A DNA stretch of 64,000 nt from Halococcus qingdaonensis (GTDB lineage Archaea; Halobacteriota; Halobacteria; Halobacteriales; Halococcaceae), in assembly GCF_024508235.1 (NCBI RefSeq), contig NZ_CP101943.1, forward strand, positions 1,895,112-1,959,111. The letters are read 5' to 3'. The translations under genes were made by a program, and so were the position numbers. A model generated the notes under the pieces. It worked only from the letters and a program-made list of their open reading frames with translations, was not told where the DNA came from and did not search any database. Positions 3,777 through 51,462 of the stretch are shown piece by piece. Position 1 is the stretch's first letter; every line of letters starts with the position of its first letter.

Positions 3777-4739
3777 TCAGTCCTCGTGCACCGCGCGGTG
3801 GGGCGTGATGTGCGGACCGCGCTCGCCCTGCTCGACGGTCGCCGAAACGCCGAAGACGTCACGGAGAAGTTCCTCAGAGATGACTTCCGACGGTGGTCCG
3901 CGGGCGTAGATCTCACCGTCGACGAGCGCGAGCATGTGTTCGGCGTGTCGAGCGGCCTGATCGAGATCGTGGAGGACGAGCACGACCGTGACGTCGCTCT
4001 CGGCTCGCAGCGTCTCGACGATCTCCATCACCTCCAACTGGTGATGGAGATCGAGGAAGGTGGTCGGTTCGTCGAGCAGCAGCACTTCGGTGTCCTGGGC
4101 GAGCGCCATCGCGATCCACGCGAGCTGTTTCTGGCCGCCGCTGAGGCTGCCGAGGGTCCGCTCGCGGAGGTGGTCGACGCCCGCCAGCGAGAGTGCACGC
4201 TCGACGGCCGCCTCGTCGTCCTCGGTCGGCGAGTCGAACGCGCCGCGATGCGGGTAGCGCCCGTGCATGGCGAGGCTCTCGACAGTGAGGCTCGCCGGCA
4301 GGCTGCTCTCTTGGGAGAGCAAACCGAGTTTGCGGGCGAGCTCCTTCGTTCCAAGCGACTGGATCTCTCGGCCGTCGAGCGTGACGACACCCGAATCGGG
4401 ATCGAGCTGGTTGGCGAGTCCCTGGAGGAGCGTACTCTTCCCCGATCCGTTCGGCCCGACGAGCGCCGTCACGCGGTTTTCAGGGATCGACACCGATTCG
4501 CCGTCGATGACCGGGCCACCGGTCGGATAGCCGAGCACCAGCTCCTCGCCGACGAGGGCGCTGTCCGGCTCGGTCCGGCCGTCTTCCGACGACTCCCTCC
4601 CCTCTATCGACGATCCGCCGGCGACGAGCGTACCGCCGTCCGGCGCGACCTCGCTGGAATCGTCCATCAGTCGTCGCCACCCGCCAGCCGCCCGTTCTCG
4701 GAGCCCGATCGATCGGTCCGCGCCGGCGGGACGCACCAT
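3777..4739 (-). CDS. Iron/siderophore (FecE-type) ABC transporter ATP-binding protein
   Basis: A cytoplasmic ABC ATPase (320 aa from this start) of the FecE/BtuD/FhuC class. It has Walker A GPNGSGKS (95-102), signature LSGGQ (199-203), Walker B LLLDEP (220-225) and an H-loop in VLVLHDLDQAARH. The core begins near residue 62, so the first 60 residues are an unconserved acidic leader; Met25 (4667) is an alternative start. On the coding strand a TATA-like TTTATG (4776-4783) is followed by a 16-bp iron box (4756-4771) and then this ATG. Another ATG at 4750, out of frame, sits at the predicted transcript start, so the exact start is uncertain. Two substrate-binding proteins follow upstream on the same strand, but no permease gene is present. 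Confidence 0.9.
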   Translation of the reverse strand: MVRPAGADRSIGLRERAAGGWRRLMDDSSEVAPDGGTLVAGGSSIEGRESSEDGRTEPDSALVGEELVLGYPTGGPVIDGESVSIPENRVTALVGPNGSGKSTLLQGLANQLDPDSGVVTLDGREIQSLGTKELARKLGLLSQESSLPASLTVESLAMHGRYPHRGAFDSPTEDDEAAVERALSLAGVDHLRERTLGSLSGGQKQLAWIAMALAQDTEVLLLDEPTTFLDLHHQLEVMEIVETLRAESDVTVVLVLHDLDQAARHAEHMLALVDGEIYARGPPSEVISEELLRDVFGVSATVEQGERGPHITPHRAVHED

Positions 4740-4755: not shown

Positions 4756-4771
4756 TTTAGGCAACCCTAAA
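4756..4771. promoter_or_regulatory. DtxR-type iron box, perfect palindrome
   Basis: TTTAGG-CAAC-CCTAAA: a 6-bp perfect inverted repeat with a 4-bp spacer, matching the TTAGG-N4-CCTAA half-site arrangement known for DtxR/IdeR/SirR repressors. It lies between the TATA-like box (4776-4783) and the start of the ABC ATPase gene, where a bound repressor would block transcription initiation. Confidence 0.75.
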
Positions 4772-4831
4772 ACACATAAACGTTTCCGTTACCAGACGAG
4801 CGGCGGTTCGAGCCGCGGTCGGGACCGTCGG

Positions 4832-6010
4832 TTACTGCGAGAACTTTCCGGCGACGATGTCCGCGACGCGCTTGCGGTCGAACAGTTCCTTCGAGACGCC
4901 GTAGACCTGTTTCGCGGCGCGTTCGGTGAGCACGAGGTTCGTGATCGGCCCCTGGTACAGCGGCCCGCCACGATAGACATCACCGTTTTTGACTGCGGTG
5001 AGATCGCTCGCGATATCGTGGTCGCGAAGGAACTGCACGACAGTGCCCTGGAACTTCGTTGCGGTCTGATCCTCGTGGCCGCGCAGGAGGAGCATCTCGG
5101 GGTCGATCTCCAACAGCGTCTCGTAATCGATCTCCGCCCGTGACGCGTGGAAGTTCTCGACATCGGTCTCGGCGAGCGCGTCGCGCACCTCGAGATCGCG
5201 CCACTGCTTGAAACTGGTTCCCTTGCCGATGAGATACGGACTGAATTTCTCTGGCTGGTTGCCGCCGGCCCAAAGGATGGCGACCGCCGGACGCTCGCTT
5301 TTCGACGGGACGATATTCGAGAGCTGCGACTGAAACCCGTCGTGGAGCTTCGAGAACGCGTTGTATCGCTGCTCGCGCTTGAACACCTTGGCGAGCTTCC
5401 CGAACGCATCGTACAGCGAGTAGTAGCGGTAGTTCTCGTGCCACGAGTAGCCCCGCGAGAAGCCGGTGTTGCCGACGAACGGCGCGACGTTGGTCGTGAT
5501 CTCGTCGATATCGGCCCGTTTCCAGTTCTTGGCACGATTCAGCAGGAAGGTCGGATCCTGAACGTGGACGTCGCCGTCGAGCTGGTAGTACGTCTCCTTA
5601 CTCACGCTACCGCCGTCGCCGAACAGAGTTGTCATCTTCGAAGTGTCGACCGAGATGCCGGGAATCCCGTCGTAATACTGGGTGTGGTAGCGCTCGGGCA
5701 GCCAGAGCGCCTTCGGCGGTTCGACGCCGAGGGCAGCGCCCATGTCGGCCCAGCTGCCATTGTTCGCGACCCACGTCTGCGGGACGCTCTCGAACGTGAC
5801 CTCGCCCATCGGTGCCATCGAGACGCTGTAAGCACCGTTGCCGCCGGAATTGGCATCAGTCGTCGATCCACCCGTCGTCGTTCCGGTGGTAGATCCGGTC
5901 GTGCGGTCGCTCCCGTTGCCGTCGCCGCTCTCGCTGGCCCCGCCGGCACAGCCGGCCAGCAGCGCGCCAGTCGTCGCCGTCACGCCGGTCAGAAAGCGTC
6001 GTCGTTGCAT
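4832..6010 (-). CDS. TAT-exported lipoprotein, iron/siderophore ABC substrate-binding protein (paralogue 1)
   Basis: A 392-residue extracellular binding protein. The N-terminus has a twin-arginine motif RRRFLTG (3-9), a short hydrophobic stretch and a lipobox LLAGC with the lipidated cysteine at 21, followed by a Ser/Thr/Gly-rich linker typical of haloarchaeal lipoproteins. The mature part resembles iron-siderophore/cobalamin binding proteins and is clearly paralogous to the neighbouring gene: both share MAPMGxVxFE, NWKRADIDEIxTNV, YYSLxDxFGK and YQGPIxNL blocks. Two iron boxes (6015-6030 and 6050-6065) flank a TATA-like CTTTAG at 6036-6043, placing the transcript start at or next to the ATG. 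It presumably delivers iron complexes to a permease encoded elsewhere. Confidence 0.88.
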   Translation of the reverse strand: MQRRRFLTGVTATTGALLAGCAGGASESGDGNGSDRTTGSTTGTTTGGSTTDANSGGNGAYSVSMAPMGEVTFESVPQTWVANNGSWADMGAALGVEPPKALWLPERYHTQYYDGIPGISVDTSKMTTLFGDGGSVSKETYYQLDGDVHVQDPTFLLNRAKNWKRADIDEITTNVAPFVGNTGFSRGYSWHENYRYYSLYDAFGKLAKVFKREQRYNAFSKLHDGFQSQLSNIVPSKSERPAVAILWAGGNQPEKFSPYLIGKGTSFKQWRDLEVRDALAETDVENFHASRAEIDYETLLEIDPEMLLLRGHEDQTATKFQGTVVQFLRDHDIASDLTAVKNGDVYRGGPLYQGPITNLVLTERAAKQVYGVSKELFDRKRVADIVAGKFSQ

Positions 6011-6014
6011 ATGG

Positions 6015-6030
6015 ATTAGGCTCGCCGAAA
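6015..6030. promoter_or_regulatory. DtxR-type iron box (proximal) of binding-protein gene 1
   Basis: ATTAGG-CTCG-CCGAAA, one mismatch from the palindromic consensus. It occupies positions -5 to -20 relative to the ATG at 6010, between the TATA-like element and the start codon. Confidence 0.65.
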
Positions 6031-6049
6031 AGAGGCTAAAGCGTTCTGG

Positions 6050-6065
6050 TTTTGGCTCGCCTAAA
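6050..6065. promoter_or_regulatory. DtxR-type iron box (distal) of binding-protein gene 1
   Basis: TTTTGG-CTCG-CCTAAA, with the same 4-bp spacer sequence as the proximal box. It lies upstream of the TATA-like element, centre to centre 35 bp from the proximal box, so the core promoter is bracketed by two sites. Confidence 0.65.
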
Positions 6066-6096
6066 TGAGATGAGGATGGGAAAACGGTCGGGGTGA

Positions 6097-7308
6097 TTAG
6101 GCGGTTCCATCGATGATGGCGGCGAGCTTCTGCCGGTCGAACAGCTGCTCGTCAGCGGGAATCTCGGGATACGGATCGCCGCTCGTGTAGTCGGGCCAGT
6201 CGCCGAACTGTTCGGGATAGAGCTGTTTGGCGGTCATCTCCAGCTGGAAGAGGTTCATGATCGGTCCCTGGTAGCGCATTCCGGACGGATAGAGGCGATC
6301 GTTGCGGATCGCAGTCAGGTCCCGCCCTGCCGGCTTGCTCGTGATGCGCTCGCGCACTTCGTCGATATCGTGTTTCGACGACATACTCCAGAGATGGAGG
6401 ATCACGTCGGGGTCGGCTTCGAGCATGGCCTCGTAGCCGACTTCGCCCCAGAGACTCGACCATTCCTGTTGGGCGAAGGCGTCGCGTGCTCCGAGCGGGC
6501 GGGTATCGGCCAGCCAGTAGCCGGGCCGGTTGAGATGGTAGGTGTAGAAGGCGCTGTTGTCGTCGTTGAGCGTGACGCGGACGGCGGTCGGGCGCTCCTC
6601 CTTCGGCGGGAGCTTCGAGCGGATCGTCGAGAGCACGTTCGAATGCATCCGTTCGAGTGTTCGGTAGCGATCGCGTTCCCGGAGTACGCGCGCGACTTTG
6701 CCGAACAGGTCCCAGAGCGAGTAATACTGGTACTTCTCTCGATAGGATTTCGGCGGCTCGTCGTGTGTGCCGCTGTAGAAGTTCCCGAACCAGGGGCCGA
6801 CGTTTGTCGCGATCTCGTCGATATCGGCCCGTTTCCAGTTCTGTTGGGTCGAGACGTACGCCGGATCGAGGAAGTGGACATCGCTGTCGAGTTCGTAGAG
6901 CTTCTCCTTGCTCAGCCCGTCGGCGAGCGGGTCGGAAAGTCCTTTCCAGTCCGGCGAGACGCCGTCCAGGCGCGCACAGTAGGAGCCCATGACGTCACCG
7001 GAAAGCTCCGGACTGTAGATCGTGTTCACGGCGTCGCCGTGACCGAGCGCGACCGCCATGTCCGCGTACTGCGAGAACACGACGAACAGGGATTCGGGGG
7101 CTCCCTCGAACGAAACGTCGCCCATCGGTGCCATTCCAACAGTGTAGGAACCACCGTTCGATGTGGTCGAGTCAGTCGACGAACCGTTGTTCGCGCCCGA
7201 CTGCGCTCCGTTGCCAGTACAGCCCGCAAGCACGCCACCGGCGAGCATCGCGCTACCGCCCTTGATCACGCCTCTCCGCGTGGGGCTCGCGCCCGTGCGA
7301 TCGGACAT
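6097..7308 (-). CDS. TAT-exported lipoprotein, iron/siderophore ABC substrate-binding protein (paralogue 2)
   Basis: A 403-residue binding protein starting at ATG 7308. The TAT signal has RR at 11-12 (TRRGVIKGG), a hydrophobic stretch and lipobox VLAGC with Cys30. The frame is open a further 63 codons upstream, but that would bury the TAT signal and run through an iron box, so the internal ATG is preferred. It shares multiple sequence blocks with the downstream paralogue (NWKRADIDEI, YQYYSLWDLFGK, RYQGPIMNL), indicating tandem duplication. An iron box sits at 7313-7328, at -5 to -20 relative to the start, exactly as in paralogue 1, with a TATA-like GATATC just beyond it. The two copies have diverged strongly and may bind different iron chelates. 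Confidence 0.87.
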   Translation of the reverse strand: MSDRTGASPTRRGVIKGGSAMLAGGVLAGCTGNGAQSGANNGSSTDSTTSNGGSYTVGMAPMGDVSFEGAPESLFVVFSQYADMAVALGHGDAVNTIYSPELSGDVMGSYCARLDGVSPDWKGLSDPLADGLSKEKLYELDSDVHFLDPAYVSTQQNWKRADIDEIATNVGPWFGNFYSGTHDEPPKSYREKYQYYSLWDLFGKVARVLRERDRYRTLERMHSNVLSTIRSKLPPKEERPTAVRVTLNDDNSAFYTYHLNRPGYWLADTRPLGARDAFAQQEWSSLWGEVGYEAMLEADPDVILHLWSMSSKHDIDEVRERITSKPAGRDLTAIRNDRLYPSGMRYQGPIMNLFQLEMTAKQLYPEQFGDWPDYTSGDPYPEIPADEQLFDRQKLAAIIDGTA

Positions 7309-7312
7309 GTAT

Positions 7313-7328
7313 TTTAGGTCCGCCAAAA
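7313..7328. promoter_or_regulatory. DtxR-type iron box of binding-protein gene 2
   Basis: TTTAGG-TCCG-CCAAAA, one mismatch from the perfect palindrome. It lies -5 to -20 from the ATG at 7308, the same spacing as the proximal box of the paralogous gene. Confidence 0.65.
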
Positions 7329-7461
7329 CAACGGATATCGGTTTCGATCGACGCTCGACGGACCGGTTCCGAAACGGGCGACCACATCGATCCGGCCGCA
7401 CCCCGATCGACGACGAGTTCTCTGCTTTCGACAGCGTTTGTTCGCTCTGTGGAGAATTGGT

Positions 7462-7477
7462 TTTTGGGATGCCGAAA
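7462..7477. promoter_or_regulatory. Candidate iron box upstream of dps
   Basis: TTTTGG-GATG-CCGAAA has the same half-site and spacer geometry as the neighbouring boxes but is the weakest match. It lies -56 to -71 from the dps ATG, upstream of the TATA-like TTAAG at 7501-7505. At such a position a DtxR-type protein could activate rather than repress, which would suit an iron-storage gene; that is inference. Confidence 0.45.
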
Positions 7478-7532
7478 ATATGTTTTCTGAACAGCAACAG
7501 TTAAGTGGGTTGTCCACCTACAGTAGAGTGTA

Positions 7533-8090
7533 ATGAGCTTCCAACAGTCCGATTCCGAGCTCCGACAGGAGTTCGGGACCGTCGAGGAGTCACCGGCGCT
7601 CCGCATCGAAGAGGAGCGCGCAGAGCAGATCATCGATGCGCTGAACGCCGATCTCGCCGCGTCGTACGTGCTCTACCACCAGCTCAAGAAACACCACTGG
7701 AACGTCGAGGGTGCGGAGTTCCTCGAACTCCACCGGTTCCTCGAAGAAGCCTACGAGGACGTCGAGGAGCAGGCCGACGCCATCGCCGAGCGCGCGCAGG
7801 CGATCGGCGGCGTCCCGGTCGCCGGCCCGACGAATCTCGCCGATCACAGCTACGTCGACTTCGAGGGCGAAGACGTCTACGACGTCCGCACCTCGCTGCG
7901 CAACGACATGGAGATCTTCGGCGACATCGTCGAGCGGTTCCGCGACCACATCGAGCTCGCCAACAGTCTCGGCGACTACGCCACCGAGGAGGTCCTCAGG
8001 GACGCCATCGACGACTACGAGGAACACGCCCACCACCTCGAACACTACCTCGAAGACGACACGCTGGTGGTCGACGAAGCGACCCACTAA
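7533..8090 (+). CDS. dps: DpsA-type DNA-binding ferritin (mini-ferritin)
   Basis: A 185-residue Dps/ferritin-like protein that oxidises and stores iron in a 12-mer and protects DNA from Fenton chemistry. The ferroxidase ligands are visible with canonical spacing: H55, H67, D82 and E86 (intervals 12, 15 and 4), in HHWNVEGAEFLELHR and DAIAERAQAIGG. The acidic N- and C-terminal extensions are typical of halophilic DpsA. A TATA-like TTAAG (7501-7505) lies about 30 nt before the ATG, so the transcript is probably leaderless, and an inverted repeat GTGG-N5-CCAC (7505-7517) directly follows it. A T6 tract (8098-8103) after the stop is a likely terminator. Its position inside the iron-box cluster supports an iron-storage role. 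Confidence 0.95.
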   Translation: MSFQQSDSELRQEFGTVEESPALRIEEERAEQIIDALNADLAASYVLYHQLKKHHWNVEGAEFLELHRFLEEAYEDVEEQADAIAERAQAIGGVPVAGPTNLADHSYVDFEGEDVYDVRTSLRNDMEIFGDIVERFRDHIELANSLGDYATEEVLRDAIDDYEEHAHHLEHYLEDDTLVVDEATH

Positions 8091-8097
8091 AACCCGA

Positions 8098-8103
8098 TTT
8101 TTT
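8098..8103 (+). terminator. Oligo-T terminator after dps
   Basis: Six consecutive T residues 8 nt after the dps stop codon. Archaeal transcription commonly ends at such oligo-T tracts; the convergent small gene ends at 8102. Confidence 0.5.
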
Positions 8104-8260
8104 AGCGTTCGAGCGGAACGGTCGTATCGGTCGAGATCCAGCCGTCGGCGTTGTCCGCCTCGATGAAGACGCTTCGTTCGAGAGAGGTCGAATGGATCGA
8201 GACATCGCTCTCAGCGGTCGTAGTGTCGTCGGCGCTCGTCAGTTCGGAGGGAACCGCCAT
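8102..8260 (-). CDS. Small (52 aa) iron-box-controlled protein of unknown function
   Basis: A 52-residue acidic protein starting MAVPSELTSADD and ending with STDTTVPLER; it has no cysteine, no membrane segment and no motif I recognise. The reading frame continues 19 codons upstream, but ATG 8260 is preferred: a TATA-like TTATAG (8283-8288) is centred about 26 nt upstream, giving a leaderless start. Two iron boxes (8267-8282 and 8293-8308) bracket that TATA box, the same architecture as binding-protein gene 1. This strongly suggests a real, iron-regulated gene. The end of the gene overlaps the T-tract behind dps. It could be a small regulator or an iron-sparing factor; function is unknown. Confidence 0.7.
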   Translation of the reverse strand: MAVPSELTSADDTTTAESDVSIHSTSLERSVFIEADNADGWISTDTTVPLER

Positions 8261-8266
8261 ACCGGT

Positions 8267-8282
8267 GTTAGGCAGGCCTAAT
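8267..8282. promoter_or_regulatory. DtxR-type iron box (proximal) of the 52-aa gene
   Basis: GTTAGG-CAGG-CCTAAT: the inner TTAGG-N4-CCTAA is a perfect inverted repeat. It lies -7 to -22 from ATG 8260, between the TATA-like box and the start codon. Confidence 0.72.
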
Positions 8283-8292
8283 TCTATAAGCG

Positions 8293-8308
8293 TTTTGGTC
8301 GGCCTAAT
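8293..8308. promoter_or_regulatory. DtxR-type iron box (distal) of the 52-aa gene
   Basis: TTTTGG-TCGG-CCTAAT, 26 bp centre to centre from the proximal box and on the other side of the TATA-like element at 8283-8288. It falls between the MATE gene stop and the 52-aa gene. Confidence 0.65.
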
Positions 8309-51030: not shown

Positions 51031-51462
51031 TCAGTCGGCAGCCCCGCCTTCGGCATCGAGCAGCGCACAGACGTCCTCGTCGGGGGCGAAACAGTCCGGA
51101 CACTGTGGCTCGCGGTCGATGATCGTGTCGAGTCGCTCGGCGACCGTCTCGTCGATGACGCTTTCGAGCTGGCTGGCTTCGGTACGAAAGTCCTCGACGT
51201 CGAGCACTTCGACGAGGAAGCGCTCGATGATGCAGTAGGTCTGGAGCGAGTCACGAGCCCGCTCGATCCCCTCGTCGGTGAGCGTCACGCCTTTGTACTT
51301 CTCGTGGTCGGCGAGCCCGCGGTCTTCGAGTTTTCCGATCATCTCGTTGGCACTCGCCGGACTCACGTCGAGCGAATCGGCCAACCGCCCCGTGGCCGCC
51401 GGCCCGTTCTCGACCTGCTGGACGAGATAGATCGCCTTCAGATACTGCTCGGCCGTGTTCAT
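51031..51462 (-). CDS. DtxR-family metal-dependent regulator (SirR/Idr-type)
   Basis: A 143-residue iron- or manganese-dependent repressor. N-terminal winged helix MNTAEQYLKAIYLVQQ...ATGRLADSLDVSPASANEMIGKLEDRGL, then the dimerisation domain LQTYCIIERFLVEVLDVEDF...EASQLESVIDETVAERLD with the metal-binding Cys/Glu/His-type positions (C and E of the YCIIERF/EASQLE region). It ends with a cysteine-containing tail CPDCFAPDEDVCALL and lacks an SH3-like FeoA domain. ATG 51462 is preferred to an upstream GTG. It is the best in-window candidate to bind the iron boxes at 4.7-8.3 kb. The adjacent ferritin-like gene supports an iron role. Confidence 0.87.
   Translation of the reverse strand: MNTAEQYLKAIYLVQQVENGPAATGRLADSLDVSPASANEMIGKLEDRGLADHEKYKGVTLTDEGIERARDSLQTYCIIERFLVEVLDVEDFRTEASQLESVIDETVAERLDTIIDREPQCPDCFAPDEDVCALLDAEGGAAD

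Follow-up and report, generated by a model that had tools for sequence, protein, structure and literature searches.

Which protein reads the DtxR-type iron boxes of a haloarchaeon, and does it repress or activate the genes that they precede? The question is raised by a window of 64,000 nucleotides, part of the 2.70-Mb single-contig genome of the haloarchaeon Halococcus qingdaonensis, in which seven inverted repeats of 16 bp lie ahead of genes for iron uptake, for iron storage and for a small protein. A preliminary description of this DNA had taken them for an iron regulon operated by the DtxR protein encoded at 51 kb, or by a paralogue. The iron-regulon part of that proposal is supported by the evidence set out below, from which we infer binding, the direction of regulation and iron as the signal. 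As a whole, the explanation that we consider probable is that the seven boxes are the operators of a haloarchaeal DtxR-type iron regulon and are read by the 51-kb protein, an orthologue of TroR of Haloferax. All seven 16-mers are present as placed and, scored against the 16-mer WTTWGG-N4-CCWAAW, four are perfect and three have one deviation, which is slightly better than the zero to two deviations previously given. They are listed here with their positions relative to the gene that each precedes.

4756..4771, iron box 1, TTTAGGCAACCCTAAA, 0 deviations; -32 to -17 relative to the start of the ATP-binding cassette (ABC) ATPase gene
6015..6030, iron box 2, ATTAGGCTCGCCGAAA, 1 deviation; -20 to -5 relative to binding protein 1
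6050..6065, iron box 3, TTTTGGCTCGCCTAAA, 0 deviations; -55 to -40 relative to binding protein 1
7313..7328, iron box 4, TTTAGGTCCGCCAAAA, 0 deviations; -20 to -5 relative to binding protein 2
7462..7477, iron box 5, TTTTGGGATGCCGAAA, 1 deviation; -71 to -56 relative to dps
8267..8282, iron box 6, GTTAGGCAGGCCTAAT, 1 deviation; -22 to -7 relative to the gene for a protein of 52 amino acids (aa)
8293..8308, iron box 7, TTTTGGTCGGCCTAAT, 0 deviations; -48 to -33 relative to the 52-aa gene and 26 bp from box 6

The earlier assignment of the sites to an ABC ATPase, two binding proteins, dps and a small gene holds. The genes of the iron block are as follows.

3777..4739 (-), FecE-type ABC ATPase of the siderophore/Fe(III) family
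4832..6010 (-), substrate-binding protein 1, a Tat lipoprotein (PF01497)
6097..7308 (-), substrate-binding protein 2, Tat-exported (PF01497)
7533..8090 (+), DpsA mini-ferritin (NF041388, above cut-off)
8102..8260 (-), conserved small protein of 52 aa, distantly DUF7331-like (PF24018, E=0.005, below cut-off)

That the boxes are a product of chance, or an artefact of AT-rich promoters, is rejected by shuffles, expected counts and reversed controls. Markov-1 shuffles of the window give no site with zero or one deviation and an expectation of 1.85 with two; the only other two-deviation matches in the window itself are at 7463 (a 1-bp shift) and 48465, which is chance level, and to this extent the earlier statement that none lie elsewhere in the 64 kb is upheld. 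The pattern used for the whole genome was the 14-bp TTWGG-N4-CCWAA. It is above chance, with 11 exact matches, five of them within the block, against 0.41 expected and none for the reversed control. Matches with up to one mismatch number 33, whereas the reversed control gives 91; this class, being unenriched, was rejected, and single-mismatch sites count only where there is extra evidence such as conservation.

The exact or paired sites outside the block bear on the nature of the regulon. A pair at genome positions 1354436/1354472, 36 bp apart and laid out as are boxes 2 and 3 (35 bp apart), precedes a third PF01497 (Peripla_BP_2) protein; a site at 1577024 lies ahead of a short leader open reading frame (ORF) and then a FecCD permease, which, with the same box, could partner the ATPase and binding proteins of the window from elsewhere in the genome; and sites at 1.227-1.229 Mb are found ahead of an RGP-type glycosyltransferase, a cupredoxin lipoprotein and an Fbp-type Fe(III) ABC operon. 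A one-deviation site at 1236131 precedes a GT2 glycosyltransferase. These targets, together with the conserved positions of the boxes in orthologues, uphold the proposal of an iron regulon. They are siderophore and Fe(III) importers and Dps, not NRAMP, ZIP or GDT1, and it is scarcely credible that the regulon is one of manganese and not of iron, although the paralogues of DtxR type that carry a FeoA domain are MntR-like. Every Haloferax fhu operon, moreover, has a 'ferR regulon signal', and the Haloferax fhu proteins with such a signal increase under iron starvation (PMC11349517).

The boxes ahead of the RGP-type (PF03214) and GT2 glycosyltransferases (L020 5402-5417 and 14131-14146) are beside the Fe(III) ABC operon, which hints at a possible link between iron and glycans. 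Another exact site, at genome 582330 (L019 5330-5345, TTTAGGTCGGCCTAAA, perfect), is near a DUF7552 ORF at 4765-5325 (-). A photolyase gene is preceded by a weak site (genome 843747), which has two deviations in the 16-mer and was not accepted into the regulon.

The box pattern is a haloarchaeal property that extends beyond a single genome. In 146 class-wide haloarchaeal genomes the exact motif occurs on average 15.6 times, against 4.0 for the reversed control, and exceeds the control in 137. The positions are also conserved. Uptake genes have their box at -5 to -33 relative to the start codon, the second box of a pair at -40 to -56, and the pairs ahead of binding-protein genes are 35-36 bp apart. 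In each of the 17 homologues of the 52-aa gene a box precedes the likely start codon by about 6-9 bp, and most have a second one exactly 26 bp farther up with a TATA-like CTTATAGAA or CCTTTTAGAA in between; twin boxes spaced by 26 bp are seen again in other families, in several cases with a readable small gene convergent with dps. Most dps orthologues, which come from several families, keep their box at -69 to -72 relative to the start codon and about 25 bp before a conserved TTTAAG, its right half often being degenerate; no recognisable dps box was found in L042, L054 and L063. Two TATA-like elements can be read from the sequence of the window.

8282..8290 (-), TATA-like element CTTATAGAA between boxes 6 and 7; orthologues keep CTTATAGAA/CCTTTTAGAA
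7501..7505 (+), TATA-like TTAAG of the dps promoter, about 24 bp beyond box 5; most orthologues keep (T)TTAAG

A mechanism may be proposed from this arrangement. Each box would take one regulator dimer and, when iron is sufficient, the TroR orthologue (51 kb; genome 1946145-1946573) would bind the boxes. At the uptake genes and the 52-aa gene the box would span the stretch from TATA to start codon (-5 to -33), often accompanied by another beyond the TATA box (26 or 35-36 bp away), and bound dimers would block TBP/TFB or RNA polymerase and so repress the gene. The dps promoter has one box, often degenerate, some 25 bp before TATA (-71 to -56), which would instead serve to activate iron storage. 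Haloarchaeal transcripts often begin at or near the start codon, so that the uptake boxes can be taken to cover the initiation region as well as to flank TATA, which is why repression is the natural reading for these genes; the dps box, being upstream of TATA, has a position that suits an activator site.

An arrangement of this kind has a precedent in actinobacterial IdeR: in genes that IdeR represses the boxes overlie the promoter, and in the ferritin gene bfrB, which it activates, they are situated upstream of it; the TTAGG-N4-CCTAA half site of the 19-bp IdeR box binds one dimer (PMC10317159). The likeness to IdeR/DtxR extends to the TTAGG/CCTAA repeats, their 4-bp spacing, the promoter-covering uptake boxes and the upstream storage boxes. 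It differs in that a single-dimer 14-bp half site is used here and that the likely regulator is without the SH3-like domain and most metal ligands. The DtxR/IdeR geometry claimed in the preliminary description is thus right for the half site but not for the full two-dimer box: instead of the four CCTAA repeats of the 19-bp IdeR/DtxR box, the sites examined have only two, with a 4-bp spacer.

The closer comparison is with the haloarchaeal FerR/TroR regulon of Haloferax volcanii (signals of Leyn & Rodionov 2015), which is alike in having an inverted-repeat signal before fhu-type siderophore ABC genes. The orthologous regulator, with its suf neighbourhood, is a further likeness, and the motif is presumably identical to the published FerR/TroR motif. 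The targets particular to the present regulon are the twin-box small gene by dps and the RGP-type and GT2 glycosyltransferases. In the work of Martinez Pastor et al. 2024, TroR is said to repress uptake and to induce storage under iron sufficiency, and its motif is reportedly found some 100 nt ahead of the start codon; the uptake boxes of the present genome come much nearer to it (-5 to -56).

The candidate regulator, which is encoded 43 kb from the boxes, and its neighbour are the following.

51031..51462 (-), short DtxR-family regulator, orthologue of Haloferax TroR (HVO_0863), with the C-terminal CPDCFAPDEDVC
51488..51970 (-), ferritin/rubrerythrin-like gene between sufD and troR, a conserved neighbour

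The protein has 143 aa and contains the N-terminal winged helix-turn-helix (wHTH) and dimerisation domains of the family (PF01325, 65 bits; PF02742, 40 bits); the profile search found no SH3-like/FeoA domain (PF04023) in it. In two Haloferax genomes the sequence of a primer that flanks HVO_0863 (PMC6801745) is found immediately before a ferritin-like gene behind sufD, and the next gene encodes a short DtxR. This placement, the shared suf neighbourhood and 73% identity to the Haloferax protein identify the 51-kb protein as the TroR orthologue. PMC11349517 cites a paper whose title begins 'TroR is the primary regulator...'.

The genome encodes two other PF02742 proteins, at 1151 and 1450 kb, which are 73% identical to each other and have a FeoA domain. 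Their ligands are MntR-like, with Asp10 and Asp/Glu102, which are manganese-type by the ligand rule in PMC10317159. Conceivably, a FeoA-domain DtxR of this Idr/SirR type is the sole reader of the boxes, and the 51-kb TroR has its targets elsewhere, the suf genes for instance. In favour of this, the FeoA-type proteins have every ligand of the DtxR/MntR set and score better against the DtxR/MntR models, and G108, in which the best FeoA-type match is merely divergent, has few boxes despite keeping TroR. Against this, three genomes from two genera (G093, G236 and G175) are without any FeoA-type protein and keep 16, 12 and 13 boxes, compared with 5, 4 and 3 control matches; in G236 the syntenic locus is intact, FeoA-DtxR and GDT1 being missing between conserved neighbours. 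FeoA-type proteins are therefore not needed for the boxes, and a FeoA-type DtxR as sole regulator is disfavoured despite the full ligand sets. With the published role of TroR in Haloferax also speaking against this alternative, we regard it as very improbable. The 51-kb TroR orthologue is then the best candidate for the reader of the boxes, as TroR orthology and the FeoA-null genomes suggest, and the choice left by the preliminary description between the 51-kb protein and a paralogue probably falls to the former.

The three FeoA-null genomes also lack the GDT1 cation antiporter, which sister genomes have, and GDT1 (PF01169) directly adjoins FeoA-DtxR, as its operon neighbour, in several genera (L087, L089, L080, L086, L187). 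The FeoA-DtxR/GDT1 pair is likely to be a manganese regulator-exporter module. The FeoA-type paralogues thus resemble MntR-type regulators in Asp10, Asp/Glu102 and the GDT1 neighbour; they differ from them in retaining the FeoA domain, and are not the best candidates for the iron boxes. They may share some of the sites, yet look mainly like regulators of manganese or another cation. A palindrome, ATTAGTATATCCTAAT (L025 4340-4355), is flanked by a FeoA-domain DtxR gene and the gene of an ArsP_2-type exporter with 10 transmembrane segments, and is possibly an operator of the FeoA-type regulator.

Several points weigh against the assignment of the boxes to TroR. Both TroR and FeoA-type proteins are nearly universal among 394 genomes and, given this and the conflicting exceptions (G108, G018, G024, G391), presence and absence fails as a complete test. 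In G018 and G024, where a close TroR is missing, 11 boxes remain, and a related short DtxR that combines full canonical ligands with a CPDC...C motif is plausibly a stand-in for TroR. A close TroR is likewise missing from the draft genomes G391 and G253, in which 41 and 12 boxes are retained. Conversely, G108 (complete, 2.2 Mb) keeps TroR with only 2 exact boxes, against 6 in the control and 13 in its sister G329. Apparent loss of TroR in G147 is a frameshift in a 200-contig draft, and that genome was not used. Halobacterium Idr1/Idr2, furthermore, are reported as iron regulators in work cited in PMC11349517. Activation at dps is suggested by the position of its box, and binding and expression of the regulon are likewise predictions from sequence. 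Finally, the 51-kb protein is without five of the seven canonical DtxR metal ligands examined, and its iron dependence is unexplained by known chemistry.

There is a serious rival to this assignment. In it TroR would share the boxes with one or both FeoA-domain DtxRs (1151 and 1450 kb), forming a network in which either alone can maintain the sites. Boxes do persist both without a close TroR (G018, G024, G253, G391) and without a FeoA-type protein (G093, G236, G175). The FeoA-type gene of G041 has a near-perfect upstream box (L187 8135), a sign of cross-regulation, and the 1151-kb FeoA gene is followed by that of an ABC binding protein (SBP_bac_8). However, the manganese-type ligands of the FeoA-type proteins and their co-inheritance with GDT1 do not favour such sharing, and the TroR-like short DtxR of G018 and G024 may substitute for TroR; we consider a shared network rather doubtful, and reading by the TroR orthologue probable.

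How the TroR orthologue might respond to iron is a separate matter. In all of 32 TroR orthologues from many genera M10, H79, H98, C102 and H106 are replaced, leaving only E83 and E105. The primary-site ligands M/D10, C/D/E102, E105 and H106 appear in these 32 as Q10, R/K/G/Q/S102 (mostly R/K), E105 (kept) and S/P/A/T106, and the ancillary-site ligands H79, E83 and H98 as Y79, E83 (kept) and R/P/Q/N98. By contrast, all 32 carry an invariant C-terminal CP[DA]CF-x(5-6)-D-x-C. Because of the ligand loss, plain activation by Fe(II)/Mn(II) may fail; the invariant cysteine motif and the suf neighbourhood suggest sensing of iron or Fe-S by a non-canonical site. It is tentatively suggested, as a possibility and not a probability, that TroR is a DtxR-fold iron regulator without the DtxR metal sites, which may sense through CPxCF-x(5-6)-D-x-C by means of an Fe-S cluster or a cysteine-bound metal, may be functionally like IscR/RirA/SufR, and may set uptake and storage genes via single-dimer boxes. 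An AlphaFold model of TroR from two sequences (pLDDT 41) is too poor to place the cysteines. The short DtxR in L149, L150 and L156 has full canonical ligands together with a C-terminal CPDCY...C, and resembles an intermediate from canonical DtxR to haloarchaeal TroR.

The small gene beside dps also deserves comment. It is present in 17/18 genomes of the family, its twin-box promoter is the most regular of the set, and it is convergent with dps in other families too. The match of the 52-aa protein to DUF7331 (PF24018) reaches 17.8 bits, below the curated Pfam cut-off of 27. A second, clear DUF7331 protein of 57 aa is encoded just upstream of dps in some relatives (L044 2584-2757, E=9e-13 for PF24018; L045 219-392; L046 2836-3009), and thus DUF7331-type proteins can flank dps on both sides. 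In some relatives the small-gene/dps locus is directly preceded by another short DtxR-like wHTH gene (L055 987-1364, L152 1438-1896).

It should be noted that the regulon is the already reported haloarchaeal DtxR-type iron regulon of Haloferax and not a new kind. What is new is its extension to another genus, a positional code that is conserved, the small gene with twin boxes next to dps, a comparison of co-losses that parts FeoA-DtxR/GDT1 from the iron boxes, and the loss of ligands in TroR. The boxes provide a clean iron regulon in another haloarchaeal genus, and their fixed positions, promoter-covering at uptake genes and about -70 at dps, predict repression or activation by one regulator. 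A side result weighs more: the orthologue of a reported primary iron regulator has lost most DtxR iron-binding residues, has an invariant cysteine motif and adjoins suf, which makes its mode of iron sensing a direct question. The co-loss of FeoA-DtxR and GDT1, for its part, suggests that control of iron and of manganese (or another cation) is divided among the DtxR paralogues.

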